From Prorocentrum cordatum (taxonomy: Eukaryota > Sar > Dinophyceae > Prorocentrales > Prorocentraceae): a stretch of 64,000 nucleotides of DNA. The stretch spans positions 578,183 to 642,182 of the forward strand of contig CAUYUJ010015027.1 of assembly GCA_963575745.1 (NCBI GenBank), in the 5' to 3' direction. This document shows positions 2,064 through 31,210 of the stretch, in pieces. The first letter of the stretch is position 1, and each line of letters begins with the position of its first letter. The notes beneath the pieces are model-generated. The model was not told where the DNA came from, searched no databases, and saw nothing but the letters and a program-made list of their open reading frames with translations. Made by a program: the position numbers and the translations under genes.

Positions 2064-2074
2064 CCTGAAGGCCC
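2064..2074 (+). repeat. Left terminal inverted repeat (CCTGAAGGCCC)
   Basis: It matches the reverse complement of 18384-18394 at all 11 bases. Similarity continues more loosely inward, with TTACTAA and GTTAGC on the left against TTAGTAA and GTTAGC on the reverse-complemented right end. Confidence 0.75.
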
Positions 2075-2465
2075 TCGGCCTTACTAATTGTTAGCAGCAC
2101 ATGTAAGTAGGTTATAAGTAAGTTGCAACTAGGTTGCAAGTAAGTTATAACCATTAGTAATGTTACTAAGTCGGCTAACTCGGGCGGTGCATTTGGAGGT
2201 AGATAGCTTGAGTTAGCGAAGTTGCTAACTTCGCTAACTTTTACATGCTTACTTGAAAACAGAGCTGCTGCATCGGGTTTTCCTTGGATGTTGCCTCCAG
2301 AAACGCATGCATGTGTTTGGATTTTCGGGATCACGCATATCGGAAATCATGATCCAGACTTGCGTGCGAACGCATTCAGAATATTGTATCGAGCGTTGTG
2401 CATTGCAAATGCAACATATCATCTCGAATTCGCAACCCTCTGTTGCACATGTTTTTGAATGTCAC
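2075..2465. other. Left subterminal region with perfect 27-nt hairpin
   Basis: AT-rich and dense in GTAAGTT, GTTATAA and GCTAACT motifs. At 2212-2238 lies a perfect inverted repeat, GTTAGCGAAGTT and AACTTCGCTAAC around a GCT loop. Its GTTAGC ends echo the subterminal GTTAGC at both element ends, so it is a candidate transposase-binding or terminus-processing site. Confidence 0.5.
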
Positions 2466-2482
2466 TAGAGTTTGGGCTCCAG
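2466..2482 (+). other. Weak spliced-leader-like sequence upstream of gene A
   Basis: TAGAGTTTGGGCTCCAG resembles the dinoflagellate SL 3' part, TAGCCATTTTGGCTCAAG, with one deletion and several mismatches. It lies 55 nt before the gene A start. It shares TTTGGGCT with the better sites at 14111 and 16048. Alone it would not be convincing. Confidence 0.3.
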
Positions 2483-2537
2483 CCGTTTGGGCGAGGATTG
2501 CTGCTGGCGCTTGTGGCGTCCTCCTGCACGCGGCGTG

Positions 2538-4958
2538 ATGAACGCCTCCCGTGAACAGCAGATCGCGGAGGTCCGCCCCAAGATGATGGCCATCAAGGAC
2601 ATGTACTTGCATCCTGATGCAGCGGTGGTCTCATTACTTGAAGACGTATGCAGCATTGCAAGAGGCATAGACTGCCTGAGGGTAGAAAAAATACACTCGA
2701 AGTATATGATGGTGTGCACAGAGAATCGTTACGGAGATGGAATCATTCCGAGCGAGGTTATGGATTTGATTTCCAAGATCTTCAAAAATGGATTCAAGAA
2801 CTCAGCCCTCCAGAATCCAGCTTGCATGGAACTTCCACCAGTGGGCACGCCTGAGTACAATACAATCAAGAACTTCAATTTCAAAATAATGGAGGACTCA
2901 GCGGGCCAGCTGCCGCAGTATGATTGCGATGCAAAGTTCGCATCCTATACGTGCGGCCACACATCCATGGGTTTGCGTTGCATCAACGCAGGGGTTCCAG
3001 TACCCACGGTCATGCCAGAGCGTTTCGACAGAATCTCGCACCAAGGGAAATTGTCACTGACGAGGTTACGGGAGGTTCAACCAGACTACGCTAAGGCGTG
3101 TGACGAAGGAATTGAGTGGAAGGTCTTTCGGTACGAGTTCGTGAAGGAGTTCCCGTGGATTAGTAATCTTGCTCAGGAGGCTGGCAATGCAGGCCAACAA
3201 ATTGCCAGATGCGAATCTCGCATGAGTCTCATGTACAAGATCGCAGCAATTGCCAACCGACACCACACGGGTGGCACCATGATCGATTGGGATAGTGTGA
3301 TCCGCGAGGCGACTCGCGCAGGCTCTCTCTTTCCTGGGGAGATCGATGGCTTAGTAAAATATGTGAAGGAGTTGTCTGGCGGCCTCGGCAACCCGATCTT
3401 TCTGAACGAGCTTCGCGACTTCTCGCGGCAGCTGACCTCCCAGTGCGTGGTCACGGGTTCAATGGCGAAGTCTCTCGCCGAGGTGCAGATCAAGCATGAC
3501 GGGGCCGCTGCGACATTCAAGCTCGCATGCATGAAGGCGATGACATGTGCGACGGGTAAGTTCGCGAGGGATGGCCATCAGATGCTTTTGAATCCAGGCG
3601 ACGTGACCGCCTTGTCGAGCGATAAGAAGTCTACGATTGTAATGGTGGCCGATGAATTTCTTCAGAAAGTGCGACAAATCGCATGCGGTGAGGGCATCAC
3701 GGCAGACACGGTCGCCTACGGCACCATCGTGGGATTGACTGACGTTCGCGTAGTTCATTTCGTGTTCAACAAGCCCGACGAGCGCTTAGGCACTTGCAAG
3801 ACGCTGAATGACATCGTGGTCAGCTTCACCACTGCGTTGGCAACGCACGTTGGCAAAGCAGTTGCTAGCCCATGGAAGCAGATCGGTCGCGAGGGCGCAT
3901 CCAAAGCCGCGACAGGGCAGGCGCGTAGCTCAGATGTGAAAGAGTGCACCGCTTCGGGCAAGTGGTCGAACCAAGTGGACAAGCTCAGTGACAAGGGGTT
4001 TGAGGTTGGCGCCAAAGTCGCCTTGGCGAGCGACACCTTGGGTGAGAACATTTACGAGCTGATCTCCATCGACGCTGCGACTGGCGTGAAGTTGAAGCTT
4101 CAGGCCACGGGCAGTGCGACATGCCACCCCACCGACGACTTCTTACGTGGCAAGTTCGTCGTGTCCACGATTATGAAGGACAGTCTTGCGACCTCGTCGC
4201 AATGCATGTGGAATGCATATACACCCCCACACCTTTGAATTCTCGTTCGTCGTTCCCTCATCTCATTCGGCTCTGCGTCGTCATGTCTCATCTTCTTTTT
4301 TTTTCCCCGCTGCTCCCCCATAGAGGAAACGATCGACAAGTTCGCTGATCATGGCCCCCTTAAGTCTGTCGATTACCAGTGGGGTATCGAGGAGGCCAAA
4401 ATCAGGCTGGCCTTGGATGATGTATACAGCCAGAACGGCAACTGTCTCAAGTACTTGAGTGGCGTGATTACGCCTGTTAAGCTTCGTGCTCTCACCGCAA
4501 CGCGTTCGTTCGAGGCTGAAGAGCTGGTGCTTGCCCCACTCTCTTCGGCAATCTACTTGAAGAAGCAGACTGATATAGTTCAGTGTGGGCATGTGTTCAT
4601 GAAGACATACAAGGGCCCCAAGGGATTGACATTCAATATCGCGTTGGCCCCCTGTGGTGGCATCAAGATGCCTAAGGCTGAGACGAACACTGGCGTTGGA
4701 GGGCTGAAGCAGGCACCGTCTTCGCTCGTCATCCCCCTCTGGCTCGCACAGGATTCAGGTGAGCACGGCACCCCCAACATGAAGCTCAAGACCGTCAAGT
4801 CTACAGCTGCCCCATCAGTGCATGTACCAAGTTTGACAAACAAGTGCGCCATCAACAAGGGCGATGTCCTTAGCGCCCAGCTGGCATCGCTCATGCCCAA
4901 GCGCAAGGTAGACGATGCGCCTGCTGCGCCCGCGGCTAAGAAGGCCAGGAAGCGATGA
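2538..4958 (+). CDS. Gene A: unknown 757-aa nuclear-type cargo protein, two exons
   Basis: Exon 1 is 2538-4178 and exon 2 is 4326-4958, joined across a 147-nt intron that starts GACAGT and ends AGAG (AAG|GA...AG|GA). The frame also reads to a stop at 4238 if unspliced. The start is the first ATG of the open frame; codons upstream of it lack another ATG. The protein is mixed-composition and probably mostly helical, with no domain I recognise. The last residues, about 735-757, form a bipartite basic signal (KRKVDD... then KKARKR*), implying nuclear import. It is the first gene inside the 16.3 kb element and is less GC-rich than genes D-H. Function unknown. Confidence in the splice site is moderate; it rests on the natural join and on the same donor type in gene D. 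Confidence 0.7.
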
Positions 4959-6655
4959 GGCTCGCGTGTTGGCAGCATCGGTTACACATACCATGTGTCG
5001 TGGGGGGTGTTTATGAAATGTATGAAAGCATCGTCGGTATCGTTCCTCTGCAATCGTTGCATCATTGCGTCAACACGCATCGGACTCGTCTGCAATTGTC
5101 CATTGCATCGGCCCGCAGGCGTTTGGCTGTGTCCAAGCGAGTGCACGCTGCATCTGCGCACGCACTGCAGCTGCAGATGGCAGTGAGCGTGCAGCTCCGC
5201 ACGGTCATCGAGGGGGGCGGCCTCAAGGATCGCGAGCCATGGGTCCCGAGGGCGGTGATGCATGCGGCAGGGGGGCTCTTCGTGGAGCTGTCGAGAGCGG
5301 ATAGGCAGCTGCAAAAATTTATATCTGTGCCCAACCCCACCAAGAGCCAATCGCCTCTGGCGACAAATTCGTTTTTGGATCAGATCTTGAAGATGCGCAA
5401 CGCCGCTTGCACCGAGGCCATTTGGGACCACTTGAAGCAGGCCGACCCATTGCTTCAGCAAGATTGCGACAGGGCCAGCGTCATTAAGAACAATGGGAGT
5501 TCTCTGGATATGTCACAATCGTGGACGCTTCGCGCATTCCCACCAGGGGAGGAGGAAGGAGAGGAGGAGGATGATACATTGGATGATGAGGTGGAGCGGC
5601 GGGGGAGGGGGGCGAGGAGGAGGGGCTGAAACAGAGGGGGATGGTGGAGGAGAAATGGGAGGAGGGAAAGGGGGAGGAGGACGGAGCATAAGGATGACAC
5701 AAAAAGGATGAGGAGGAGGAATAGGAGATGTCTTAATTCGCTTGCGTGAATAGGCCGCTCTTGGACCACTCTTGGATCGATCTCTTGACCTTGAGACTTC
5801 TTGGGCAATCTTGGATCGCGTGATATATTGGACAAGCTTGGGCAATCTCGGGTCGCGTGATATCCATGCCTGCATGTTGAGGCATCGCGTGATATTGGGA
5901 CATATCCGTGGACATCTTGAAGTATATATGAGCCCTTCTTGGAACCACCGTCCAGGCAAACCACTCCCCCAAGGGGGTGAAGGGCGTAGAAGAGAACGCA
6001 TTCTAGACATGTGCCCTAACGGGATGGTGGTCTACCAGAAACTGTCTCGATATATACGCCCGCAGTCCAGTGCGACCATGGTGATGAGCATTTGCATCAC
6101 GATGCAGTTGCCTTGAAGCTTCTGTTTGAGCTGAATGCTACTAAGAAGGTGTGGGCCGAATGTACGCCAACGGGACTTGAGTACATACGGGTTGCATCTA
6201 TCGCAGCAGCGGTTTCATGCAGTCAGGAGGCAACACATCGCTTGCGGTCAGCACCAGCAGGGGTGGAAGGTGTGAAATGCGACAAACGTCGCAGGACGGT
6301 GTTCATGGTGGTCGACGGCAAGCGTCTGCAGGAGCGAGTGGACGATTGGACTCCCACGTACATCAACAACGCAGCCCAATCCCTTCGTGATCGCTTAGAT
6401 AACGAGGCACGTGATGAGGCTGAAGCTGATGGGTCCGAGGAGTACTATGACCCGCCAGTCGCAGCAGGCGATGGCTCGCCACCAGGCGATGGCTCGCCAC
6501 CAGGCGATGGCTCGCCACCAGGCGATGGTTCGCCAGGCGATGGTTCGCCGCCAGGTGATGGTTCGCCAGGCGATGGTTCGCCACCAGGTGATGGGCCGCC
6601 CTCTGTTTTCACTCGCCGACGGGAGATGCGCCAGACGACGCTTAGCTTCCAGTAG
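4955..6655 (+). CDS. Gene B: unknown cargo protein with GDGSPP repeat tail
   Basis: Two coding blocks share one reading frame. The first, about 5118-5545, is protein-like from an AG acceptor near 5117. The second, about 6071-6655, is preceded by a CAG acceptor. The intervening 525 nt is GGA-rich, then carries loose repeats of GATCGCGTGATAT, and is read as intron; the donor is not fixed. The C-terminus has about eight GDGSPP or GDGSP repeats (6466-6597), then a basic stretch ending MRQTTLSFQ*, faintly like a PCNA-interacting peptide but out of register. An ATG at 4955 overlaps the gene A stop as ATGA, but the first 50 codons look non-coding, so the true start is uncertain. Function unknown. 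Confidence 0.5.
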
Positions 6656-6729
6656 CTCCACTCCCTCTTCGCCTTCCCACCCCCCCTTCCCTCTCCCTCC
6701 AATCTCTATTCTATTTTTGCCTCGCGTGC

Positions 6730-7752
6730 TCAGTCCGAATCTGGCCCCGCTGGCGGCGGGGACTCAGTAACAGAACTCAGTTCAAGATGCGGAGGGCCAT
6801 CGTCGCGCATGCCGCTGTTCGGCACATCGGCGCCCCTGCCCATGCTCATGCCCTTGCCCTCGTCGGGGCCCTTGCCGTCATCGTAGCCCCCGCCGCTGTC
6901 GAGGGCCGTCGCCTTGCCCTTACCACCGTCGTTAATGCTCTTGCCACCGTTGTAGCCCTCGCCATCGTCGTAGCCCTGGCCACCGTCGTAGACCTTGTCA
7001 CCGTCGGTGCTGCCCTTGCTACCATCGTAGCCCTTGCCACCGTCGTAGTAGCCCATGGCCTCGTCGTCGATGCCCGCGCCACCGTCGTAGCTTGTACAGC
7101 CGCGACCGATGCCACCAGCACCCTTGCCATCGTCGTAGCCCTTTTCGTAGCCCTTGTCGTAGCCCTTGTCGTAGCCATTGACGTAGCCCGTGTCGTAGAC
7201 CGTGTCGTAGCCCTTGCTCGAGCTGCCGTACGGGTCGTAGCCTTTGTCGCTGCCCTTGCCGCCGTCGTAGCCTTTGTCGAAGCCCTTGCTCGAGCTGCCC
7301 TCGGCGCTGCCCGTGCCACCGTCGCCCTTGTCGTCGGCCTTGCCGCTGTCCGACATCATGTCCTGCAGCCCGTCACGCTGCTCCTTCGCCAGCCTGATGT
7401 GGCCCTTGCCGCTGTCGCCGTCTTTGTCGCGGCCCTTGCCGCTGCCGTCATTCTCGCGGCCCTTGCCACTGTCGTAGCCCTTGCCCTTGCCACCGTCGTA
7501 GCCCTTGCCCTTGCCATCGTCGTAACCCTTGCCACCGTCGTCGTAGCCCTTGCCATCACTGTCGTAGCCCGTGTCGTAGCCCTTGTCGTAGCCTTTGTCG
7601 TAGCCCTTGTCGTAGCCTTTGTCGTAGCCCTTGTCGTAGCCTTTGTCGTAGCCACTGTTGTCGTAGCCACTGTTGTCGTAGTCGTAGCCCTTAATCAAGA
7701 GCTCGGTGACGTCGAGCAGCCTGTCTGTGATCCGCCGCTCCCGCTGGAGCTC
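6730..7752 (-). CDS. K1: Gly-Tyr-Asp-Lys repeat protein, 3' exon
   Basis: The minus-strand exon runs from an acceptor (ATACAG then GAG) at 7752 to the stop at 6730. It opens ELQRERRITDRLLDVTELL and then reads GYDKG, GYDDGGKG and similar repeats, including six consecutive GYDK units. A non-repetitive island, HIRLAKEQRDGLQDMMSD, interrupts two repeat blocks near 7360-7402. The matching island in K2 (HIRLAEALATKEQLDGRQD) shows the two genes are paralogues. The first exon was not found; upstream on this strand is a CTC/GAG tract that reads as poly-Arg and is not coding. The composition suggests a disordered, sticky protein, perhaps RNA-binding or condensate-forming (inference). Confidence 0.55.
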   Translation of the reverse strand, partial: ELQRERRITDRLLDVTELLIKGYDYDNSGYDNSGYDKGYDKGYDKGYDKGYDKGYDKGYDTGYDSDGKGYDDGGKGYDDGKGKGYDGGKGKGYDSGKGRENDGSGKGRDKDGDSGKGHIRLAKEQRDGLQDMMSDSGKADDKGDGGTGSAEGSSSKGFDKGYDGGKGSDKGYDPYGSSSKGYDTVYDTGYVNGYDKGYDKGYEKGYDDGKGAGGIGRGCTSYDGGAGIDDEAMGYYDGGKGYDGSKGSTDGDKVYDGGQGYDDGEGYNGGKSINDGGKGKATALDSGGGYDDGKGPDEGKGMSMGRGADVPNSGMRDDGPPHLELSSVTESPPPAGPDSD

Positions 7753-8635
7753 CTGTATGGAGGGCGAAAATCCGCCGACCTCCCTCCTCCTCCTCCTCCT
7801 CCTCCTCCTCCTCCTCCTCCCCCTCCTCCTCCTCCTCCTCCTATTCCTTCTCCTCCTCCTCTTCCTCCTCATCATCCTCGTCTTCCTCCTCGTCCTCCTC
7901 ATCCCCCTTCATCCTTCCCCTGTGGCTCTCACCCCAGCAGTCCTCGTGCAGGCGGCTCAGCGCCTCGGCGCTGTCATGGCGCGCCATGGCCGCGCGCGCC
8001 ACCGCGCGCGGCCACGCCCCCCTGGGAGGAGAAAGGGGTCCTCCAGGGGGCCTCGGTCCAGAAACAGCAGCGCGCGCAAATGGGGGGAGGGGGGGGGGGG
8101 TGCGATTCAGGTGAGGGGGCGATTCGGGTGAGGGGGCGTGGCTGCGTCGCGAATCGTTTCGCGCTGTGCACTCATGGGTGCATGCAGCAATGCATGCGTT
8201 GTTTCAGAGTTTACTTGGGGATGTGAACTTGAAAATGAGATGCGTTAGCATCGTCGTCTGCGTTCGCTCGAGACAGCCTCACAATTAACTCAGCATCACA
8301 CGACCTCACAATGAACTCAGTACCGCGAACCATGATGTTGGTTATGGTATGCCATGCAATGCTACGCTATGATGTGAATATCCCTCCCCGACCTCATCCT
8401 CCTCCGTTGCCACCGCCGTTTAGGCCCGAGCGTTGCTTGGGTCGCGACAGTGCGCGACCAGCTGCAGCGCTCCACGCGCAGCAGCTACCAGCGCTCCGCG
8501 CGCAGCAGCACCAGCTGCATCAGCACCACCAGTGCATCCAGCAGCTCCACGCGCAGCAGCGCCAGCTGCAGCAGCGCCACCAGTGCAACCAGCAGCACCA
8601 CCCGCAGCAGCATCACCAGTGCAACCAGCAGCACC
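7753..8635. other. Divergent intergenic spacer with CTC and CAG tracts
   Basis: This spacer lies between the 5' sides of K1 (minus) and K2 (plus). It holds a CTCCTC tract (about 7785-7915), a poly-G run near 8085-8100, and CAG/CAC-rich repeats (8470-8635) just before the K2 ATG. No promoter consensus was recognised. Confidence 0.45.
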
Positions 8636-9907
8636 ATGGCGGACGAGACCGCGGTGACGCTGCTCCTGGAGGCGGCGGAGGATCTCAGCCAGCGGCGGCG
8701 CGCCGCGGCCGCCAAGGTCTTGCAGCCCACCAGCAAGGTGGCCCCTCGGCCGCCAAGCACGCCGCCGACGGCGAAGGTCTTGGCGAAGTACGATCGCTCG
8801 CGCGTGGCCGACGGCTTGCTCGATGATCTCGAGTTGGCGCCCGCGCTGGATCCCGAGTTGAACTCGTTCCAGGGCCTGCAGGAGTTCATGGACGACGGCG
8901 ATGGCGACGACACGGGCTACGACTACGCCAGCTACGACGGTGGCAAGGGCATCACCGACGGTGGCAAGGGCTACGGCGGCGGCAAAGGCAGCTCGAGCAA
9001 GGGCTTCGACAAGGGCCACGACGATGGCAAGGGCAGCGGCGCAGGCTACGACATCGACAAGGGCCGCGACAAAGGCTACCACGGTGACAGGGGCGACGTG
9101 GACTACGACGGTGGCAAGGGCGACAAGGGCTACGGCCGCCGCTACGACCCGCACAGCTCCAAGTGGTATGACCACCACAGCTCGTGGTACGACCGCGACG
9201 ACGATGACTACGACAACAGGTGGTGCGACCGCAGGCGCTGGGGGGACTACGACAAGGGCTCGAGCAAGGGCTACGACAACAGAGGCTACGACAGCAAGGG
9301 CTACGACAAGAGTGGCAACTACCAGCGCGGCTACGACAACCGTGGTTACAACAACCGTGGCTACGACAACCGCGGATACGACAGCAGTGGCTACGACAAC
9401 CGTGGCTACGACAACTACGGCAACAGTGGCTACGACAGCCGTGACTACGACCGCAAGGGCGACAAGGGCTACGATCGCAAGGGCGACAAGGGCTACGATC
9501 GCAAGGGCTACGACGTCGGCAAGGGCTACGACGGTGACACGGGCTACGGCGGTGATCCAAGCTACGACCGTGGCGATGCAGGCTACGACAGCGGCAAGGG
9601 CATCGACAGCGGCAAGGGCCACGACGGCGGCAAGGGCGATAAAGGCTACGACGGCGGCAAGGGCTGGCGCGAGGAGAAGTCCCGCGGCGGGCGCCACATC
9701 AGGCTGGCGGAGGCCCTTGCCACCAAGGAGCAGCTGGACGGGCGGCAGGACCTGATGTCGGACCGCGGCAAGGCCGACTACGTCAGGTGGGGCAAGCGGA
9801 CGCACTGGCGCATATGGGTGGAGGAAAACAATACAGATCTAGTTCTATCGGGCCCCCTCACCCCTCCTCCTTCAACGGTTCTTACCAAGGACGGGGGGGA
9901 AGGATGA
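8636..9907 (+). CDS. K2: Gly-Tyr-Asp-Lys repeat protein (423 aa)
   Basis: The chosen ATG begins MADETAVTLLLEAAEDLSQ, a helical N-terminal segment of about 90 residues. An acidic hinge follows, then about 250 residues of GYDxxGYD, KGYD and YDRKGDKG repeats. It closes with the island GRHIRLAEALATKEQLDGRQ and MSDRGKADY, shared with K1. The open frame continues upstream but is a Ser/Thr translation of CAG repeats. The last 40 codons may be read-through of a 3' intron or UTR. It is transcribed away from K1. The length difference lies mostly in the repeat blocks. No family is known to me; low-complexity Y/G/D/K proteins of this type are typically disordered. Confidence 0.6.
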   Translation: MADETAVTLLLEAAEDLSQRRRAAAAKVLQPTSKVAPRPPSTPPTAKVLAKYDRSRVADGLLDDLELAPALDPELNSFQGLQEFMDDGDGDDTGYDYASYDGGKGITDGGKGYGGGKGSSSKGFDKGHDDGKGSGAGYDIDKGRDKGYHGDRGDVDYDGGKGDKGYGRRYDPHSSKWYDHHSSWYDRDDDDYDNRWCDRRRWGDYDKGSSKGYDNRGYDSKGYDKSGNYQRGYDNRGYNNRGYDNRGYDSSGYDNRGYDNYGNSGYDSRDYDRKGDKGYDRKGDKGYDRKGYDVGKGYDGDTGYGGDPSYDRGDAGYDSGKGIDSGKGHDGGKGDKGYDGGKGWREEKSRGGRHIRLAEALATKEQLDGRQDLMSDRGKADYVRWGKRTHWRIWVEENNTDLVLSGPLTPPPSTVLTKDGGEG

Positions 9908-10127
9908 GGGCCAAGAGCTGGATATGTAATGTGTTCCTCCTCCCGACATCTGGGCGGAGGCGGCCGCTCGCCGCTGATCAGTAGCGCCAGACACCACTAC
10001 CAAAGCGGCGCCGAAGCCGCCGCTGTCGCATTAATGTGCCGCCACCAGCGCGGCAGCAAGCGTGGAGTTCATTCTAGACCGCGCGCTGCCTCTCCTCCGT
10101 CGGGCATCATCTATTATGGTGGGGGTT

Positions 10128-10420
10128 GTCGTATGTAAGATTCTAACATACGACGCAGTTGTCGTATGTAAGATTCTAACATACGACAAAGTTGTCGTAT
10201 GTAATATTCTTACATACGACACCGTTGTCGTATGTAAGATTCTAACATACGACGGATGTGTTAATAGAACCCTTATGATATATAAGAGCGAGATGTCGTA
10301 TGCACGATTCTTACATACGACAACGTTGTCGTATGTAAGATTCTGACATACGACAGATTTGTCGCATGTAAGATTCTGACATACGACAGATTTGTCGCAT
10401 GTGAGATTCTGACATACGAC
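10128..10420. repeat. Array of eight 27-nt hairpins, 33-bp period
   Basis: Eight copies of GTCGTATGT, a 9-nt loop centred on GATTCT, then ACATACGAC start at 10128, 10161, 10194, 10227, 10295, 10328, 10361 and 10394. Each copy is exactly 27 nt, separated by 6-nt spacers. The one 68-nt step replaces a missing unit with unrelated TA-rich sequence. Loop and arm changes mostly preserve pairing. The array lies 3' of K2. Confidence 0.92.
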
Positions 10421-10439
10421 ACCAAGGGTTTGAGCTCAT

Positions 10440-11580
10440 GTTTAGAGTAAACTTCGAGGGTCTCCATCTCGCTCGTGGTCGACGTTGCGCCTAGAATTGG
10501 CTTGTCTGCTTGGCTGCGCTGCCCGCGGCTGCGCTGGATCATGTTGATAAGTGGATGCATGAGCGTGGCGTGAGCGAGAATAAGGGGAAGTGGGATGAGA
10601 GGAGGATGCGCGGGAGAAGGAGGACAAGGAGAAGGAGAGGGGGGAGGATTCTGAGGGGGAGGTGGGGGGGTGAGGAGGAGGAGGAGGAGGGGAAGGCCCA
10701 TCCTCCCCCTCATCCTCATCCTCCCCCTCCTACCTTTATCCTCCTCCTCCTCCTCCTCCTCCGCCGCCGCCTCCTCCTCCTCCTCCTCCTTCTCCTCCGC
10801 CTCATCACCCTCCTCATCTTCCCCCACCTCCTCCTCCCCCTCTGCCTCCTCTTCCTCATCCTCATTCTCCTCCTCATCATCCTCATTCTCCTCATTCTTA
10901 CTCCGTCTCATTCTCACCCTCTTCATTCTCATCATGTCTCCTCCTCGTTCCCGCCGTCGCCGTCGAAGCCGTCGCCTGCGCCGTCATCTGCGCGCGCGGT
11001 GCAGGAGGGGGCGGCGGCCACCGTGACGACCACGATTGAACGACAACGAGGATGAGGAGGAGTAGGAGGAGGAGCATGAGGAGGAGCAGGACAAGGAGCA
11101 CGCGGAGGAAGAGGGGGACGATGGGGAGGAGGAGGAAGGAGGAAGGAGGAGGGGGAAGAAGATGAGGAGGAGTAATTGCCATGGCGGCTGCGATAGCGAC
11201 GGCGACGGCGAAGAGTTGGTGGCGACGAGTTGGCTGCGACGAGTTCGACGGCGGCGGAGACGACTGCGGGGGCGTCTCATCCTGCCCCTCCTCCTGCTCG
11301 CCCTCCCCCTTCTCCTCATCCTCGTCCTCCTTCTCCTCCTCCCTATCCCTCATCACCATTCTCATCCCCATCATCCTCCTTCTCCGTCTCATTCACCTCC
11401 ACCGCCTAACCCTCCTCATCCTATTCTTATTTCTCCTCGTCCTCATTCGTATTCGTGTCATCGGTCTCTCCGCAGGGTGCTTTATCGCGCGAAAAGCTGC
11501 AGCGAGAACCTGAAGGCTCGCATACATGCGTTTGCACGCACAGCCCCAACGAGCCCCCATCTAAGTACGCCCCGACACCC
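10440..11580. repeat. Alternating polypurine and polypyrimidine blocks
   Basis: GGA-rich blocks (about 10560-10695 and 11030-11170) alternate with CCT-rich blocks (about 10696-10935 and 11275-11450) on the same strand. Neighbouring blocks are therefore mutually complementary. Long frames through them encode only Ser/Leu or Glu/Arg runs and are rejected as genes. Confidence 0.7.
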
Positions 11581-11584
11581 ACAC

Positions 11585-12356
11585 TCAGGCGGCGTATTCA
11601 CCGATACCCAAGGCTTTGCGCCCCCGCGCACGATCGGCAGCACCTGCCTCCACAAGGCGATTATTCGCCCGATCAACCGCACCCTTACACATCTTGGCGT
11701 TGTCCAAGAGCAACGTGAACGAATCCGCGGCCTGCTCCGCCTTCTTCACGAGCTTCTCCATCTTCTTGTATGCAGCGTCTGCCTTTCGAGTGGGCATGGA
11801 CGGGGTTCAGACGTGGCGTTGACACGCCGTTGCTAAGTGCGACCGTTCGCCCAACCGCTTGAGACCATGCGACCACAGTCGCAACGCCAAGCCATTACAC
11901 AACCAATTTCACACCCTGACATCATGATAGTACATACCTGCGTGTCAACGCAACCGAACGCGCATGCATACGACAGCATTGGGCGCTGCCTCAACGCACC
12001 CCCCCCCCCCCCCCCCATAGTGTCACAAGTGCGCCCTTCGACGCGAACTACTCGCAGCCGGTTGCAATGCGTTTCAACACAACCGAACATGCATACAACT
12101 GCATCGGGTGATGCCCAGACGTTTATGCTCTAATCAGCAAAAATATTTTGACGTGAGTGGACTGCAACCACTTGCAACATGTCATGCATGAGATACTGGC
12201 TGCCTTGCGGTCCGCCGTTTTGGACATCTTCTGGCAATGCTGCTTGTGCCTGATCAGGGTATCCAAACTTTCATTGAAGTGCTCCGTGTCCTCCTTGCGG
12301 TGCTTGGCACGCAGCGCCTTCAAGTCGGCTGACATGGCAGGCATAGTCGCGTACAC
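11585..12356 (-). CDS. Gene I: small coiled-coil protein (about 116 aa), two exons
   Basis: Exon 1 runs from ATG 12356 (alternative ATG 12335, MSADLKALRAK) to 12204. Exon 2 runs from 11782 to the stop at 11585. The 421-nt intron starts GCAGCC after AAG and ends AAG before GCAGAC, so both junctions read AAG|GCAG. The join gives a continuous charged helix (TADRK then ADAAYKKMEKLVKKAEQAADS) with heptad-like Leu/Ile/Met spacing. The intron holds a 17-base poly-C run and repeats of CAACCGAACRYGCAT. It faces gene J head-to-head across about 395 bp. No domain recognised; likely a coiled-coil partner. The C-terminal exon end is uncertain because a further GC donor (GAG|GCAGGT) exists. Confidence 0.55.
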
Positions 12357-12750
12357 ACACGCGCGCGCCGCAGCTTACAAGCTGCGTTCTCTCAGCCCTC
12401 AACCAACTCGGCTGCGTGAAAGCGCATGTAGTCTGCGACGCGGTCGCATGGCATGAGTGCCAACCATGTGATCACACATCACTGCCCTACTCATACCCCC
12501 CCCCCCCCCCACTACATCGACGCCGTGGTCGGGCACTCCCGTTGCATGTCCACCCCCAGCCGCCTCCTCATCTCGACCCCTCTCCTGTTCGCACCTCTCG
12601 CGCCCCCCCCCCCCCAGCTTACTACGTGTCGCCAACGATGGCGGGGCTGAACGTTTGGCAAACCGTCAGCAGCATTTGTGGTTCATTCGCCCACCTTTGC
12701 GAACCAGTTCACGCGTGGCTTACGCGCCCCCATTTGTGGTTCACGTGTCC

Positions 12751-13187
12751 ATGGGAAAATCAGCGAAGACGATCGCGATGGAAGCGCAGGTGCGCTTTGA
12801 GCTGCAGGATGAAAAGCAGGAACGCCAGCGGTCAGTGAAGACTGCCAAGGCGGCATTGAAGCATGCCAAAGCAGCGAAGACGCAGGCTGAGAAGAAGGCA
12901 GGCGGTTGTTAACTAACAACAACACAAGGGCCCCTCGAGGCCAGGGGGGAGGGGATGGGCTCTCGAGCCCACCCCCTTAGTCAATGGCCCCATCGGTGTC
13001 GCCAGTCCCACCCGCCTCCGTGCGATCGCCCCCCTCCCTCCCCCCCCGATAGGCAGAGAAGAGGTTCAATGCGTTTTTGAAGAGCAAGGACGCGTGGATG
13101 AACGCGCTGCTCGACGCGGATGATGCGAGCGCGGCCCACGTTCGGGCCGAGACTGAGCTGGCGCGCGCCGAGCGCGATGCCCGCTAG
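12751..13187 (+). CDS. Gene J: 93-aa coiled-coil protein, two exons
   Basis: Exon 1 is 12751-12897 and exon 2 is 13053-13187, joined over a 155-nt GC-AG intron. Both junctions read AG|GCAG. The protein starts MGKSAKTIAMEAQVRFELQD, is very rich in Lys, Ala, Glu and Arg, and ends ETELARAERDAR*. It appears to be one long amphipathic helix, so a coiled-coil oligomer or DNA/RNA-associated partner is likely (inference). Unspliced, the frame stops at 12912. It lies between divergent gene I and gene C inside the 16.3 kb element. No known family recognised. Confidence 0.6.
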
Positions 13188-14110
13188 GGGCGTGGGGGCG
13201 ACGGACGACGGGTGGAGGGGTCAGAGAAAAAACCTGCATGCATCAATGCAAGATGAGTCTGGGATGATAATGTCGGCATGATAGCGCAGGTGCCTCGTCC
13301 CCCTCCTCATCTTCCCCCTTCTCCTCCTCCTCCCTCCTCCTCCGCCTCCTCCTCCCCCCTCCCTCCCCATCCTCATCCTCATCCCCATCCTCGTCCTCCC
13401 CATCACATCATTCCCTCTTCGTCCCTCCTCGTCGTTGTCCTCCTGTTGCTGCTGGTGCTGATGCTCTTGCCCATCCTACTACGCTACTAAGCCGTGCCCC
13501 CCCCCCCCATCGCTCCCTCACAACTGCTTCGCACTCTGAATGGCATTGGTGCTATGCGTTTCCGCCTTTTCGCGTCATAGGATCATCCGACGCCTCGCGA
13601 TATCTGTAGGATGACGCAGCACCAAAACCCCAAGAGGAACCACATATAGAGCCCCAAGGCCGCAACGGGGAGGAGGAGAGGGATGAGGAGGGGAAGATGA
13701 GGAGGATGAGGCGGAAGAGGAGGAGGATACGGAGGATCGCGACTTTGGGATGCTCCCGGCTGGTGAGGTTAAATCCAGAACGCCAGTTCTGTGAGTGGTG
13801 TCTTGGACCGTCCCCTCGGCATCAGGGCGCGCGCACTTAACGAAAATGATGATGAGACATATGATGATAACAACTGCAGGTGGTCTGCGCTCTTCGTTCG
13901 AGTCGGATGGGCTGGCGGGGATACGCGACGCGGCAACACTTACATCGCCATATACGCGTCGGTTCTATGTATGCCAAGATGCATGCAACCCGTTGCAGGT
14001 GGTAGACTCGCACTGCCATCCGACACCAATCTTCGATGCGTGGGGCATTGCAAGTTGGCATCAGTTGGTGTCGGGTTCTCGTTTCGAATATAGATCACAC
14101 AGGCCCGCGT
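13188..14110. other. Intergenic spacer with low-complexity tracts, no gene
   Basis: It contains a CCT-rich tract (about 13297-13480), a poly-C run (13497-13508), a GGA-rich tract (13660-13735) and about 350 bp of ordinary sequence in which GTTGCAGGTGGT occurs in near-duplicate. Frames at 13791-14229 look like chance ORFs. Confidence 0.5.
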
Positions 14111-14132
14111 CGCATAGCCATTTGGGCTCGAT
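14111..14132 (+). other. Relict spliced-leader sequence upstream of gene C
   Basis: TAGCCATTTGGGCTCGA matches the dinoflagellate SL core TAGCCATTTTGGCTCAAG closely; over the full 22-nt SL there are five mismatches. It lies 93 nt before the gene C ATG. The internal T-to-G change (TTTGGG for TTTTGG) is shared with the site at 16048. Confidence 0.55.
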
Positions 14133-14251
14133 CGCGATCGATCGCGATCTATCGCGAGGCGCGATCTTTCGCGAGGCGCGACCTATCGCGAGGCGCGAGG
14201 CGCGAAGGTTCGGAACTGTCGTCATATGACGACGGTTCCGAACCTCCGCGC
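14133..14251. repeat. GCGATC/TCGCGAGGCGCGA repeats leading into a 52-bp palindrome
   Basis: Self-complementary motifs (ATCGCGATCGATCGCGAT, then TCGCGAGGCGCGA three times) run up to a near-perfect palindrome at 14200-14251. That palindrome has 24 of 26 paired positions and is centred on CAT|ATG, so the ATG of gene C is its exact midpoint. Confidence 0.85.
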
Positions 14252-15630
14252 GGAACTGCAGCACATGTCAGAGTGGGTATCGACACAAATCGCATGTGGC
14301 CTGTGCCCATCAGCCGTGGCCCAGCACCAGTACGACAGCCTCCTCATGAAGATCAACAACCTGTCACAGATCAGTACTGACGAGGCGACAGCCTTGGTGA
14401 AACCAATCAGGGAGCACTCGCTGAACACTTGGACTCAAGAGAACATCGCACGCTTGTGCCAGAGCGTCGGGACCAAGACAGGCATGTTGTCAATGCCAGG
14501 CGGACCCAAGCAATGGCAAGAGATTAGCATTGCATCGAGTGTCTTCACGGCGAGCGAGATCAAATCGCTGAAGAGCGGCGACCTGAGTGAGAAGGCGTGC
14601 ATGCGCCTGGTCGCCGCTCGGTGCAAGCTGATCGGCGCCCACACGCTCTCCGAGAGCTCCAAGGGCAAGATGGCCGCGCTCGTGGCGTGGGGCAGCGGCA
14701 AGGGGCATGGGGGCGATTGGCTCAGGCTCCTCGGAGAGGTGAAGGGTGCCATCTCCAAGGCCATCACGTGCAAGGGTTGGTCCACGCTTGGGTACGCCAC
14801 GGTGTGGAACTTCGACCGCATCGAGGACATGTCGGCTGAGCCGTGGTGGAAATCAGCTTACAAGGACGATGGGCCCGCCTTGGAGGAGATCCAGACGGAC
14901 GCGCCAGACTACGTGAGGAAGTCGAGCAGGCGTTGCGCGGCGAAGACCTCGCCTGCAGCTGCAGCGCCCCCAATGACAGCCCCAGACCCTGCGGCTGGCG
15001 GGCAGTTGCGGGTCATGCAGGCCCTGTTCGGTGACCTTCGGTGCACCGCTGTGCGCGGCGCTCTTCGCCAACTCGGCGGCCGCGGCTCTCAGGCCGCCCG
15101 AGCCGCCCGCGCAGCCGCGCGTGGAGCTGGAGCCCCCGAAGCCAAAGCTCCCGCCGCGCGAGGAGCCGCAGCAGGAGCCGAAGCTTCCGCCGCGCGAGGA
15201 GCCGCGCGATGATGAGCCCGAGCCGGACCTGACCGACGAGGAGGAGAAGCTCAGGGCGCTCCTCGCCAAGAAGGCCAAGACCGCCAAGGCGAGGAAGCGC
15301 CCCTCCGCGGCTGGCGAAGGCGCCGGTGACGCCGAGGGCGGGGCAGGCGTCGAAGACGCCGAGGGGGCTGTGCCAATGAAGAAGGCGCGGCCCCCTGCCA
15401 TGCGGCGACCCGCGGCTGCCGTGCCAAAGCCCGCCGTGCTGCCCAAGCCGCCGACGTGCGAGTGCAACGCGCCGTACAGGTGCGGCTACGTGATCTACAA
15501 GCCTTCACAGAAGGTGTTCAGGGCCGTTGTGGGGAGGGCAGATCGCCGCGTCCGCTTCGACCGCAATGCGACGATGAATCGCATTGAGGCTTGGAGCGCG
15601 GCGCTGGCGTGGATCGACGCCAAGTGTTAG
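14226..15630 (+). CDS. Gene C: 450-aa cargo protein, paralogue of gene D
   Basis: Exon 1 is 14226-15040 and exon 2 is 15093-15630, with a 52-nt GT-AG intron (CG|GTGCAC...CTCTCAG|GCC). A one-base indel near 15030 is the alternative. The N-terminal 250 residues are mixed helical sequence. Residues about 270-390 are Pro/Glu/Lys-rich with basic clusters (KKAKTAKARKRP, MKKARPPAMRRP) that look like nuclear signals. The C-terminal 60 residues are a compact block ending RNATMNRIEAWSAALAWI. Gene D has the same plan: a similar central block containing LC...SE...MAA, a basic linker, and an ending with RNGKEKEAAIAWAKALV. The ATG is the centre of a 52-bp palindrome and is preceded by an SL relict. Function unknown; nuclear location inferred. 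Confidence 0.7.
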
Positions 15631-15784
15631 GTGCTCGACGCGGGGAGGGGGAGGACCAGGGGGTTGTTGAGGACCAGCAGGGCTGGGAGCTCGCATCGCA
15701 GCTGCAGCGCGGCGGTGGGCGGCGCCACATCGACGAACTCTCTCTTGCTTGTATGACGTTGCACCATGATGTCTAAAACACAAG

Positions 15785-15998
15785 TCTGTTGCGATCTTTT
15801 CATCGCAAGTCGCATGCATCAATATGCAACACTCCTTTCTGTTGCGAGCTACCGTCGCACTTCGTATGCATCAATATGCACCTACATGTCCTTCTGATGC
15901 GACGTCGTATCATGCCATATGCATCGGTATGCAACGTGCACTTCTGTTGTGATCTATCGCCTCGCTGCATTCAGATGCATCATGCAGCGTGCCCCTAC
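15785..15998. repeat. Four-copy tandem repeat (about 51-55 bp) 5' of the transposase
   Basis: Each copy starts CTGTTGCGATC or a variant (near 15786, 15838, 15893 and 15942) and contains TATGCATCAATATGCA-type palindromes. It lies between the gene C stop and the SL-like site before the transposase, a position where regulatory repeats would be plausible. Confidence 0.6.
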
Positions 15999-16047
15999 CA
16001 TAACGCGACGCATGCATCCTATGATGCGCATTGGCATCGTTATCGAG

Positions 16048-16069
16048 TCTGTAGCCATTTGGGCTGAAA
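16048..16069 (+). other. Relict spliced-leader sequence two bases before transposase ATG
   Basis: TCTGTAGCCATTTGGGCTGA matches the 22-nt SL at 18 of 22 positions over 16048-16069. Only CC separates it from the ATG at 16072. This is the expected position for an SL inherited from a trans-spliced mRNA. Confidence 0.65.
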
Positions 16070-16071
16070 CC

Positions 16072-18152
16072 ATGGCCGCGTCCGCCGCCAGGAAACGCAA
16101 GGCGGATGAGGCGCTGGTGGAGCTCCACAGGGGCTCATACCTGTCACAGCGTGCTCTGTCGGGTGTCCTAAAATATGTGCGAGACCATGGGTTGCCCGAC
16201 AATATTTCACGGAGCTCACAATACAGGGCAAACGAAACATCATTGCCAAAGAGTCGAACGCATATGGGAACGTCTTGCGTTGCATAGACACGCCTTTAGT
16301 CAGTGGTGGAACTTTCGAGAACTGGGTGTGCTGTCCTGGGCCATTTTTGTATTCCTGCTGCAAGGCTAGCGCTCCAGTCAGGGAGATGTTTCGCCGCTCA
16401 CTTCAGGAGCACCCATGCAGCTTGGCGTCGCCGTGGCACATCATTTTATATTTCGATGGTATTTCACCGCGAGACTCCCTGGCGAAGGGGAAAGATTATC
16501 GGGGGGGGTGATGCTGTTTACTGGTCGTTCGCTGAGTTCGACGAGTCCTTGGGTAACGAAGATGCGTGGTTCACGCTTAGCACTGCGCGGTGCGCAAAAA
16601 TAAAAAGCATCCCAGGTGGCATCGGGCAGTGCATCAAGATGACCCTCAAAGAAGTTTTTTTAATTCTGCTGGTGGTTTCAATTTTGAGACGAGCGGTGTT
16701 ACATTAGACGTGTCAGAGAACGGCGACGCAACGTCGCACGCGACGATCGTCGCGAAGCTGTCGTGCGTCATAGGGGACGAAGAGGCATTGCGGGAGCTAC
16801 ACATGAACAAAGGGCACGCTGGTTCCAAACCCTGTGCGTTATGTCGCAACGTCTTGAATAGAAAGTTTGATTATTTGACATATGATGTATCTGGTTTCTT
16901 TGTGACAGACGCGTGCTTGGATGCGTCAAAGATACGCAGAAACGATGACGCGACAATCATCGCGATCCTGGAACGACTTCGGCCCGATTGGGATAAATAT
17001 CAGCGGGGGGAGTTTTCAGAGGGGCAGTCCACGACCATCACACAGCACAAAGGATGGAACTTCCACCCCGAACACATAGCGCTGGACCCAGGTTTGCGAT
17101 ATCTCCCTGCGTCATTCATTTGCTTTGACTGGATGCATATTTATGTTGTGTCTGGTATATTCGACAGAGAAGTAAAAGCACTTTTAGGGCATGCGCAGTT
17201 CAAGTGTTTGTGTGATGCAATGGAGTTGCATGAGTATTTCATGAAGTGGACGCGGCCGAGTAAACACCACTCAGCCGCAACTGTATGGGAGACTGGTGAG
17301 CTCCAAGCAAGTGCCTCAGAAGAGATCTCTGCGTTGCCTGTTTCGTGCAGGTATATTCGGCAAGTAATTGCCATGCATCCTTCATCGGATCAAGTGGCCC
17401 CCCAGATCGCAAGTATGCTGGCATTGCAAGATGCCGTTGACATAATCATCACGGCGGCGCGGCGGCTTCCAGTCACGACCGCGCAGATAGAGTCAGCGAT
17501 AGTGAAACATCTTCGGTGCCATCAGGACGCATATGGTGAAAGCTATTGGGTGTATAAGCGCCATATGGCAACACATTTGCCAGAAATGTTTGAAAAACAT
17601 GGGTCGCTCAGTTGCTTTGTCCAGAAACGCAAGCACAAAAACGTAAAACGTTTCGCCAAAGACCACATGTGCAAGAAGGGGCCAGAGAAGGCTCTCATGG
17701 TCCAACTCACTGCGCAGCACGCGCACGATTTAAAGACCATGCGTGTTTCACCTGGCTTAGTCGACCCAACGAAAGCAACGCAGAAGCTGCTGAATGCGTT
17801 GAAACGCATGTGCCCTGGGACGCAGACAGCCGTCTCCAGCATCGAAGCCATGACAGATTTCGGCCGCATCAAGCGCGGTGATATCGTACTTCTGGGGTCC
17901 GGCGGGATGCATGCAGCAATGCAAGTGTGGTTTCACGTGAAATGCGACGATGGCGAGTCGCAGGTGCTTGTCCAGCAGCTTGCAACTAAGCATGTGAACG
18001 CCGCTGAAGGTTTTTCCAAACACATCTTTTTAGATGATACAGACCCTGTTCTGATGCCTCTGACCTCGCTGAAAGCTCCTGTGATTTACAGGAACATAGA
18101 GAACGACATCACGTGCATTTGGCCAGTAGAATACAAATCGCGATGTTGCTAA
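16072..18152 (+). pseudogene. Tnp2/KDZ-like transposase, frame-disrupted (about 690 aa)
   Basis: Coding is continuous in homology but uses frames 1, 3, 1 and 3, with breaks near 16200, at the poly-G near 16500, and at the poly-T near 16653. Ordered landmarks are an N-terminal helical block (ALSGVLKYVRDHG), a strand block (PWHIILYFDG), EDAWFTLSTAR, a cysteine pair PCALCRN (from 16830), the acidic FDWMHIYVVSGI (Asp codon 17127) and CFVQKRKHKNVKRFA (from 17613). The C..C, D.MH and CF..(K/R)KH pattern is that of large RNase H-fold transposases of the En/Spm Tnp2, Plavaka and KDZ groups. Its place next to the right terminus fits a self-mobilising element. The breaks could be decay or sequencing error, since two of three sit in homopolymers. 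Which subgroup it belongs to is unsure. Confidence 0.65.
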
Positions 18153-18383
18153 CATGATGCGCTGCGGACCGTCGCGTTTGCCCCAGGACGATAACAAAAT
18201 CTGAAGGCCCCTGAGCAGATCCAAATCGACGAAGCGCCCAATCATGATGCCCCAATTACCAACTACATGAGATGCAAAAACATAACATAAACATTAAAAA
18301 ACAGCTTCAAACTGGCCAAACCTAACTAGTTATAACTCCGTTAATAACAATTAGAAGTTCCGCTAACTGTTACTAACTACGCG
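18153..18383. other. Right subterminal region
   Basis: From the transposase stop to the right inverted repeat the sequence becomes AT-rich, with AACTAGTTATAACTCC, AATAACAATTAG and CTAACTGTTACTAAC. These motifs mirror those at the left end. Confidence 0.5.
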
Positions 18384-18394
18384 GGGCCTTCAGG
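18384..18394 (-). repeat. Right terminal inverted repeat (GGGCCTTCAGG)
   Basis: Exact reverse complement of 2064-2074. It is followed directly by CAGAGGAGCCC of the satellite unit, giving the 2-bp CA target duplication. Confidence 0.75.
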
Positions 18395-18941
18395 CAGAGG
18401 AGCCCAGAGCGGCCTCCGGCACCGTTTCCGGACAGATCCGCTGGATCCGGCGACGAATCCCAAACCGGCGCCCTCGCTTGAGACATCCTCGCAAAACCGG
18501 CCCCGGGGGAGGTGCCCAGAGGAGCCCAGAGCGGCCTCCGGCACCGTTTCCGGACGGATCCGCTGGATCCGGTGACGAATCCCAAACCGGCGCCTTCGCT
18601 TGAGACATCCTCGCAAAACCGGCCCCGGGGGAGGTGCCCAGAGGAGCCCAGAGCGGCCTCCGGCACCGTTTCCGGACGGATCCGCTGGATCCGGTGACGA
18701 ATCCCAAACCGGCGCCCTCGCTTGAGAAATCCTCGCAAAACCGGCCCCGGGGGAGGTGCCCAGAGGAGCCCAGAGCGGCCTCCGGCACCGTTTCCGGACG
18801 GATCCGCTGCATGGATCCGGTGACGAATCCCAAACCGGCGCCCTCGCTTGAGACATCCTCGCAAAACCGGCCCCGGGGGAGGTGCCCAGGGGAGCCCAGA
18901 GCGGCCTCCGGCACCGTTTCCGGACGGATCCGCTGGATCCG
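18395..18941. repeat. 122-bp satellite array, right part
   Basis: Units start at 18400, 18522, 18644, 18766 and 18892, in the same orientation and with the same sequence as 1449-2063. One unit has a CATG insertion. The array ends abruptly inside GGATCCGCT near 18941, against AT-rich sequence. Confidence 0.92.
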
Positions 18942-18944
18942 CTT

Positions 18945-19235
18945 TGGTGATGGCGTTGACATATGAGATTTATGTCAGATGAAGTCACTTATAAGTTACT
19001 TCAATTATATATGAAGTTATTTGTAAGTAACTTGAAATCACTTGTAGTGAGATATGTTAAGATCCTGCAACTACCATCCACATCTAACTTAAGTCATTAA
19101 CATATATACTTAAATCACATGTAGAACATATGTTACTTGTGTGCACCCAATTGCCATACTTATAAGTTACTTGTAGTTATACTTATAAATAAGATAAGTT
19201 TAAGTCCGATAAGTCTGCTTTTTCGTCTGCTTTTT
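18945..19235. repeat. AT-rich cluster of AAGTTACTT-type motifs
   Basis: About 290 bp, much more AT-rich than the surroundings. TTATAAGTTACTT, AAGTAACTTG, TTACTTGTAG and similar direct and inverted copies recur. The style resembles the subterminal region at 2085-2160. No terminal inverted repeat was found here. Confidence 0.55.
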
Positions 19236-19407
19236 GAAAAGGGGGTCGGACACCGAAAAACGCGCAGGTTTTCTTCAGCACAGTGTTTCGCCAGGCGCCA
19301 GGCGACCGAGAAGGCCGTTCATCACCGAGCTCAACCCGCGCAGCCTGGGGGGTAGGAGAGAGGGGGCGGGAATGGCGGGGGGGGGATCGGGAGGGGATGC
19401 CATGCGC

Positions 19408-19930
19408 ATTGGCGGCACACCGCCCGCACTTCTCATCGCGGCGCGTTCTGATGTGATTCGTTTCGGCGGCCCACCGCCCACGTCTTGCAAATTCTGAGCA
19501 GTTTTATCGCATTGGCGGCGCACCGCCCATCGCTATGTTTTGCCCGCGTATTGCAATTTGTACGTTTTGCACATGTTGATTGAAGTTTCGTCGCGTTGGC
19601 GGTGCACCGCCCACGTTCCCTTGATTGCGCGAATCGTTTCTTCACGCATCGGCGGAGCACCGCCCACGCAGCACGTTTCATCCGAATTCGTCATCGAATT
19701 TGGCGGTACACCGCCCACGTCCCCGTGATTGCGCGATGCGTTTCTTTCGCGTTGGCGGTGCACCGCCCGCGGCGCATGCTTCGCCCGAGTTTGTCATCGC
19801 ATTTGGCGGCCCACCGCCCACGTCACCTTGATTGCGCGAGGTGTTTCTGCATTCGTTGGCGGTGCACCGCCTTCGGCGCACGTTTCATCATATACCGCTT
19901 GATTGGTCGCATTGGCGGCGCGCCGCCCAG
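19408..19930. repeat. Ten-copy palindrome array (GGCGGTGCACCGCC family) 5' of gene D
   Basis: Ten copies of GGCGG-NNNN-CCGCC, most often GGCGGTGCACCGCC (a perfect 14-bp palindrome), occur every 50 bp or so. In the middle they alternate as a dimer of about 102 bp with CCTTGATTGCGCGA and TTCATCG-type spacers. The array ends about 150 bp before the gene D ATG. Confidence 0.88.
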
Positions 19931-26465: not shown

Positions 26466-27010
26466 CCACGTAGTCGTCGGCGGCGCACCGCCCATCGGTT
26501 GGACTTGTCCGCTGTGCTCCGCCCTTTGTTTTGTTTGACGTTTCCGTCGGCGGTGCACCGCCCATTGCCTGGTTGCACAATTTCGTCGGCGGCGCACCGC
26601 CCATGGATCGTCGTTGTCGGCGGCGCACCGCCCATTGTATGATTAGACAATTTCGTCGGCGGTGCACCGCCCATCGGTTGGACTTGTCGGCGGCGCACCG
26701 CCCAATTTATGATTGGGCAATCTCGTCGGCGGTGCACCGCCAATCGGTCGTCGTTGTCGGCGGCGCAGCGCGCATTGTATGGTTGCACAATTTCGTCGGC
26801 GGCGCACCGCCCTTCGATCGTCGTTGTCGGCGGCACACCGCCCATTGCATGGTTAGACAAGTTCGTCGGCGGCGCACCGCCCATCGATCCTCGTCGTCGG
26901 CGGCGCACCGCCCATTGTTTGCATGTATATTCGTGAGCGCCACGCCGATCATTTGTTTTCCTTGTCGCGGCTGTCGCATCGCGCCGCGCGTTTTCGGCGG
27001 CGCACCGCCT
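26466..27010. repeat. Thirteen-copy GGCGG...CCGCC palindrome array 5' of gene G
   Basis: Twelve copies occur at about 26467-26910 and a thirteenth at 26998. From about 26615 the copies alternate at 40 and 30 bp, making a regular 70-bp dimer whose spacers read TTGGACTTG or CGTCGTTG and CATTGTATGGTTRGACAATTT. The gene G ATG lies about 190 bp downstream. Confidence 0.9.
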
Positions 27011-29609: not shown

Positions 29610-29795
29610 GCTCGGCGGCGGCTGCCCTGCTCAGCCCCCAGCCGCTGCGACGCGCGCTGGGGCGCGCTGGAGGCGCGCTGGAAGTCTGCCCCCGCCCGCG
29701 CAGACTTCCCTCGCTTAGACAAAAACTATATTCCTCCGTGGTCCGCCTCCCTTTCCTCGTGCACGGCGTCCTTGTAGCCATGCTCCTCTTATTTC

Positions 29796-30066
29796 TGGCG
29801 GTGCACCGCCCATGGGCAGCATCCGCCGACGGCGGTAGATTGCCTCCTGTCCACACCCCGCACTCTTCTGGCGGTACACCGCCCGTTGCCAGCCATCCGC
29901 CGACGGCGGTACTCCGCCTCCTGTCCATGCCCCGCACTCTTCTGGCGGTGCACCGCCCGTGTGCAGCCATCCGTCGTCGGCGGTACTCCGCTTCCTGTCC
30001 ATGCTCAGGAGTCTTCTGGCGGTGCACCGCCTGTTGTCAGCCATCCGTCGTCGGCGGTGCCCCGCC
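29796..30066. repeat. Eight-copy GGCGG...CCGCC palindrome array 5' of gene H
   Basis: Copies include GGCGGTGCACCGCC (three times), GGCGGTACACCGCC, GGCGGTACTCCGCC and GGCGGTGCCCCGCC. They sit in a repeat of about 72 bp with CAGCCATCCGYCG and CCTGTCCATGC spacers. The array lies between the gene G stop and the gene H start. Confidence 0.88.
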
Positions 30067-30332: not shown

Positions 30333-31110
30333 CGGGGCGTATCGCGGGCGGCGCTGGACAGGTGCACGGAATCCAAAAATCATAATGCGCAATGTGTTTG
30401 AAGGATGTTTTGTTTGGTCGGCTTTTTCTTTTCAAAATACCCAACCGATCTCCACCCGCCTTTATGTTTTTTTGTTTTTATTATATTTTGTTTTTATCGT
30501 TTCTTATTTTTTTATTTTTTTCTTTCCTTTTTTGTTTTCTGTTTTTTTTTGTCTCCTGACACCTGGCCGTGAGAACCGCATTTTTTTTTTTCTTTTCAAA
30601 ATGCCCAACCGATCTCCGCCCGCCTTCCCGGCGCAGGGTGGCTCGCGTCCTGCTGCAGGACGACGACGAGCACGTGGCGGCGGCGACCGTGGGCGCCGAC
30701 GTGGCTCGCGCGGTGGCGCCGCTTCTGGATGTTATCGAATTGCCGCGCCGAGACGGTGGCCCAGCGTTCAGGTGGACTGTATGTTTGCCCGACAAGATCG
30801 TCCCCAAGCTGGCCCACGCGGCGGGGCTTTGGAGTGATCGGTTCTGGGCGGCGATGCGGGTGTTTCCTTCGTCGCCATCGCAACCGTGGCGGATGCTGCT
30901 CTACCACGACGACGTGGTCGTCGGCGCGCAGCTCAAAGCTGCAAACCGCAGGACGTCCATTGTTGTGTACATTCGTTTTTTGGAGCTGGGCACATACCTT
31001 CAAGAAGAGGGCGCCTGGCTCCCGCTGGGAGTCCTTCGGTCAGAGGACAAGAAGGATATCACCGCAGCGGGCGTGGTGAGGGCCATCCAGCGGCGCCTCT
31101 TCCTCGGGCC
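30276..31110 (+). CDS. Gene H: transposase-related protein, 5' part, cut by gap
   Basis: Exon 1 is 30276-30361 (MAERWPPGKRQRLQEAALLR) and exon 2 runs from 30637 into the N gap at 31111, with a 275-nt GT-AG intron that is very T-rich. Blocks align by eye with the transposase at 16072: AALDRVARVLLQDDD with ALSGVLKYVRDHG, QPWRMLLYHDD with SPWHIILYFDG, and EEGAWLPLGVLR with NEDAWFTLSTAR. It therefore looks like the N-terminal third of a related Tnp2/KDZ-type transposase, here in frame. The intron carries a 40-bp direct repeat (30427-30466 and 30588-30627), the second copy touching the acceptor. Whether the catalytic part follows is hidden by the gap; sequence after the gap is GGA repeat, not coding. 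Confidence 0.6.
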
Positions 31111-31210
31111 NNNNNNNNNNNNNNNNNNNNNNNNNNNNNNNNNNNNNNNNNNNNNNNNNNNNNNNNNNNNNNNNNNNNNNNNNNNNNNNNNNNNNNNNNN
31201 NNNNNNNNNN
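31111..31210. other. Assembly gap, 100 N
   Basis: Exactly 100 N, so the true gap size is probably unknown. Frames drawn through it are meaningless. Confidence 0.99.

Follow-up and report, generated by a model that had tools for sequence, protein, structure and literature searches.

The window analysed here is the whole stretch of 64,000 nucleotides taken from contig CAUYUJ010015027.1 of Prorocentrum cordatum. Near its left end is a 16,331-bp insert (2064-18394) that sits between two blocks of a 122-bp satellite. The insert carries three genes with relatives in the protein databases, one of which resembles a transposase. We argue that it is a DNA transposon, and the questions are how good the case for insertion is, where the element belongs among known transposons and whether this copy can still move.

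The insertion and its target

The insert is bounded by perfect 11-bp inverted repeats, CCTGAAGGCCC at 2064-2074 (+) and again at 18384-18394 (-). The window has no third exact copy; 7 sites are found when up to one mismatch is allowed, against 2.56 expected in shuffled sequence. The left flank terminates in GGTGCCCA and the right flank begins with CAGAGGAGCCC, so that a CA lies on each side (2062-2063 and 18395-18396). Removing the insert together with one CA yields GGTGCCCAGAGGAGCCC, which is a normal junction of the satellite unit. Tandem Repeats Finder places the left array at 1449-2063 (+; 5.0 copies, 97% matches) and the right array at 18395-18941 (+; 4.5 copies, 96% matches), in the same orientation and phase. 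This program knows nothing of the insert ends, so the inner borders of the arrays are an independent placement, and they fall exactly on the ends of the insert.

BLAST finds 10 copies of the unit, all within the two arrays. Nine are 96.8-100% identical to it over the matched stretch, although one of these is only 50 bp long. In order up to the break the left units have identities of 100, 100, 100, 99.2 and 91.4%, the last being the junction copy at 1937-2063. The right units have 98.4, 99.2, 99.2 and 96.8%, followed by the partial 50-bp copy at 100%.

The inverted repeat should not be given too much weight by itself. The window is of low complexity and contains 2,020 exact inverted 11-mer pairs 10-20 kb apart, 90 of which also have equal outer 2 bp. 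Such pairs are common here, which makes the repeat weak proof of insertion when it is taken alone. The case is instead that the ends and the CA duplication coincide with array borders that were mapped independently on both sides. One can imagine a scenario where two satellite blocks from different loci were joined by the assembly. Satellites are prone to misassembly and the window is scaffolded, with a gap of 100 N at 31111-31210. However, this is the sole gap in the window and no N lies within the insert or the arrays. A chance join would not produce exact inverted ends, a duplication and a restored phase at both borders, so we consider an artefact highly improbable.

The initial annotation described the locus as a DNA transposon lying inside a 122-bp satellite. 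It cited perfect 11-bp inverted ends, flanking repeats of the same unit, orientation and phase, and exact rebuilding of the unit upon excision with one CA. All of these observations hold. Together with the transposase-like gene, the ends, the duplication and the restored unit support the view that a DNA transposon entered a 122-bp satellite that was already there. It also called a size of 16 kb with at least eight genes unusual for a cut-and-paste element, but large elements are known in the broad group to which this one is assigned below. The soybean CACTA element Tgmt* is given as 20.5 kb (PMC2613891), and Rim elements average 14.1 kb as cited in PMC1636069.

Repeats just inside the termini, a hallmark of CACTA ends, are hinted at on the left side but not on the right. 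The left subterminal stretch (2075-2374, not assigned to a strand) has short repeated motifs, including AGTTAGC four times on either strand. It contains 81 repeated 6-mer pairs against a shuffle maximum of 47, while the right end has 42 against a maximum of 52. What weakens the left signal is that control stretches equal it: two of three, one set outside and one within the element, likewise rise above their shuffle maxima (142 vs 71 and 159 vs 123), and the third falls below its maximum (53 vs 70). An inward near-copy of the element end, TCTGAAGGCCCC, occurs at 18200-18211, 195 bp from the right terminus. We considered a separate 195-bp mini-element at 18200-18394, whose inverted ends agree at 11 of 12 bases, but its flanks differ (AT vs CA) and the idea was dropped.

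Genes of the insert

Searches for homologues in protein databases covered genes A, B and C, and the other open reading frames (ORFs) of the insert were compared with Pfam only. Among the many ORFs of the insert three sets, namely these genes, have protein-database relatives. Nine ORFs had no Pfam match at E up to 0.1. In another comparison with six insert ORFs, two matched weakly and under the cut-offs, and the remaining four had no match. The homologues thus support three genes, and not the "at least eight" that were first counted. An Rfam scan and a tRNA scan (bacterial code) both returned nothing.

Gene B (16072-18152, +) is the transposase-like gene. It has 11 database relatives, the best of which is 90% identical over 95% of a 523-aa query. 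It aligns end to end with the relative P0001 (693 aa) in blocks at 16072-16236, 16224-16505, 16477-16656 and 16659-18149. These four blocks alternate in frame, which means there are three frame changes. The family has residues in the order D, D, C(2)C, H(3)H, E. In P0001 numbering D236, C255 and C258 are kept in 11 of 11 relatives, and H498, H502 and E519 in all 9 that have letters there. The protein of the window has K where those nine have E. We infer that D129, D236 and E519 are the catalytic residues of a DDE transposase. The D of an FDWMH motif was a candidate for the second aspartate, but D236 is preferred in view of how far it lies from the C(2)C pair.

The family matched no Pfam family, and its profile had 12 weak sequence matches in the PDB, the best at E 0.17. 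In a low-confidence structure model, the part that lies between the Cys and His pairs resembles RAG1, while a resemblance to a BAH domain is seen at the C-terminus; the transposase may carry a chromatin-binding domain. Candidate stretches for gene B were found in viral contigs (4) and in bacterial and archaeal genome contigs (496), and none of them was confirmed. Elsewhere in the window, 30668-31099 (+) holds a fragment of the gene B family with 25% identity to P0001 (E 1e-8) that reaches the gap at 31111-31210. Judged by its similarity, it is a second, distant transposase of the gene B kind.

Gene A (2538-4958, +) encodes an accessory protein and belongs to a family of 31 database proteins, with the best relative 99% identical over 96%. 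Its exons (2538-4178 and 4326-4958) are separated by a 147-bp intron (4179-4325) that can be read as GA-AG. A 141-bp GT-AG alternative (4183-4323) is likewise in frame, so we no longer treat the GA-AG intron as firm. Without the 147-bp intron the gene gives an intact 757-aa protein with no internal stop, and its size matches six relatives of 755-762 aa. In a structure model of the relative P0016 a SET-like fold at the C-terminus, encoded by exon 2, follows a long helical domain. Most of the first 440 residues have a predicted local distance difference test (pLDDT) score above 80.

SET methyltransferases have NHxC and catalytic Tyr motifs. The tails of gene A proteins were inspected by eye in the window protein and in the six of nine printed relatives that reach this region. 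They have N followed by M or L rather than H, and an ELxYDY-like end was not seen in them either. The usual catalytic motifs thus seem to be missing from the SET-like part. By sequence the gene A profile has no match in the PDB. A viral structure library gave nothing at E <= 0.001, with several SET proteins among the weak rows. Viral contigs had 12 candidate stretches for gene A and none was confirmed.

Gene C (14226-15630, +) has two database relatives, 98 and 80% identical, and its frame changes once when compared with P0043, somewhere from about 15010 to 15053. Two ORFs between genes A and C, at 6730-7908 (-) and 8378-9907 (+), are rich in Gly-Tyr-Asp/Lys repeats. They form a diverged inverted pair, 71% alike over 404 alignment columns. 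A 33-bp tandem repeat of nine mostly self-complementary copies occupies 10125-10422.

Classification of the element

The CMCT clade includes EnSpm/CACTA, Mirage, Chapaev, Transib, Plavaka, ESTA, Lanisha and RAG1 (PMC12730594). Its transposases are described there as having C(2)C and H(3-4)H between the second catalytic D and the last E, with target duplications of 2-5 bp. The gene B family has both pairs in that interval, an arrangement that arose in 141 of 100,000 permutations. The CA duplication of 2 bp, known from one insertion, falls in the range of the clade. In another account RAG1 groups with DUF1280, the Chapaev family, and Transposase_21 as a small clade of their own (PMC3985635). From the residues of gene B and the form of the insertion we think it likely that the insert is a DNA transposon and represents a divergent lineage within this clade, whose name stands for CACTA/EnSpm-Mirage-Chapaev-Transib.

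Several observations count against this placement. The element ends in CC..GG and not in CA..TG, although the latter is said to hold "in most cases" and is thus usual rather than universal (PMC12730594). No Pfam transposase family recognises gene B, the structure model is weak and the profile of the family does not match a CACTA control significantly (probability 0.2%; one weak alignment covers the H(3)H site). The control sequence itself is recognised by PF02992 at 2.3e-94. One could argue from this that gene B is a DDE transposase of a new superfamily outside the clade, and that its Cys/His pairs and resemblance to RAG1 are coincidental. We regard that as unlikely. The order and spacing of the residues are those of the CMCT clade, the duplication length is inside its range, and the low-confidence model independently shows a likeness to RAG1 in the part flanked by the Cys and His pairs.

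Placement within the clade is another matter. CACTA/EnSpm proper has CACTA ends and a 3-bp duplication (PMC4158355). Here the ends are CCTGAAGGCCC with 2 bp duplicated, and Transposase_21 (PF02992) was found in 0 of 10 gene B family members at E up to 10, so CACTA proper was rejected. PlavakaA has TGT..ACA ends with 2 bp and PlavakaB has CATCA..TGATG with 2-3 bp (PMC12730594); the duplication length alone would be compatible, but the ends differ. Zisupton makes an 8-bp duplication (PMC12730594) and does not fit the 2 bp seen here. ESTA would be expected to duplicate TA, and CA is observed in this one insertion. Transib makes a 5-bp duplication, which again is not the 2 bp at this locus. The remark that the ends and the 2-bp duplication match no nameable superfamily can be made more precise. 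A broad group does fit, namely the CMCT clade, but we file the element as a divergent member outside any named superfamily.

State and mobility of this copy

This copy is probably dead, since gene B has three frameshifts and a K in place of the predicted catalytic E, and it could probably not produce a transposase of its own. It could be argued that gene B is intact in the cell and the element active and autonomous, with the frame changes being errors of assembly. The changes are small, one falls where a stretch contains eight consecutive G, at which long-read assembly may go wrong, and the 2.3-kb gene A is intact. However, there are three changes in gene B and another in gene C. Length errors could account for some of these, but not for the K that replaces the E shared by 9 of 9 relatives. 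We find an intact gene B improbable, and the most fitting reading is a non-autonomous copy whose ends may still work in trans.

The following scenario is suggested. The gene B protein would bind the ends of the element and excise it by means of a DDE (RNase H-like) active site formed by D129, D236 and E519. It would then join the element to a target whose strands are cut 2 bp apart, and repair would leave a CA on each side. With less certainty, the BAH-like C-terminus of the transposase and the SET-like domain of gene A might read or influence chromatin. With gene A intact and gene B broken, the present copy would be mobile only with a transposase from another copy.

Related systems and significance

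The nearest published terminal pattern that we found is that of animal CACTA relatives (TRC, for example SmTRC1), which have CCC ends and 2-bp duplications (PMC1636069). They share with our element ends starting in CC, 2-bp duplications and a CxxC near a catalytic Asp. They differ in that TRC ends start with CCC where ours start with CCT, and in having a Transposase_21 domain that was not found here. Tgmt* is also large with short inverted ends, and encodes a transposase and a second protein, but it has CACTA ends, a 3-bp duplication and strong subterminal repeats (PMC2613891). With the CMCT clade in general, the element shares the order of the transposase residues given above, a 2-bp duplication within the range of the clade and possibly a RAG1-like insertion domain. 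It differs in its CC..GG ends, the lack of a Pfam transposase match and its BAH-like C-terminus. Phytophthora HarbingerS and MuDR DNA transposons are reported to carry SET genes (PMC12730594), and thus would share with our element an accessory gene of SET-type fold. Their transposases are different, and here the SET-like part stands behind a long helical domain and seemingly lacks the usual catalytic motifs.

The exact ends, target and gene order of a large dinoflagellate DNA transposon make its family searchable and testable. If the domain readings are true, the group related to RAG and CACTA gains a lineage of its own and a transposase with an apparent chromatin-reader fold. A tentative extension, which we hold to be doubtful, is that dinoflagellates have a RAG/CACTA-type lineage at the level of a superfamily, where a transposase ending in a BAH (histone-reader-like) domain and a partner ending in a SET-like fold would build chromatin recognition into transposition, in hosts that reportedly have no ordinary nucleosomal packaging. 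No CMCT transposase with a BAH domain was found in the literature surveyed, mostly at the level of titles and abstracts. Such a domain would be puzzling, since histones are thought to have no major role in packaging dinoflagellate genomes (PMC4751559). There is a parallel in dinoflagellate retrotransposons that bear DNA methyltransferases (PMC5890265).

Other features of the window

Directly after the satellite is an AT-rich stretch (18941-19240) with short inverted motifs, ACTTATAAG four times and AAGTAACTT three times, where shuffles gave at most 3. In this it resembles the terminus of a further mobile element. Arrays of palindromes like GGCGGTGCACCGCCC occur outside the element at 19400-19900, 26546-26918 and 29793-30066. 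Three further features suggest that the host is a dinoflagellate. A 3028-aa ORF at 39981-49067 (+) has a zinc knuckle and RVT_2 above the Pfam cut-offs, as in a polyprotein of the Ty1/copia type. Around 57-60 kb an endonuclease and a reverse transcriptase of the long interspersed nuclear element (LINE) type match below those cut-offs. Slightly upstream of them, at 54669-54689 (+), is a relic that resembles the dinoflagellate spliced leader with 2 mismatches in 21; shuffles gave a mean of 0.01, with a match in 1 of 100.
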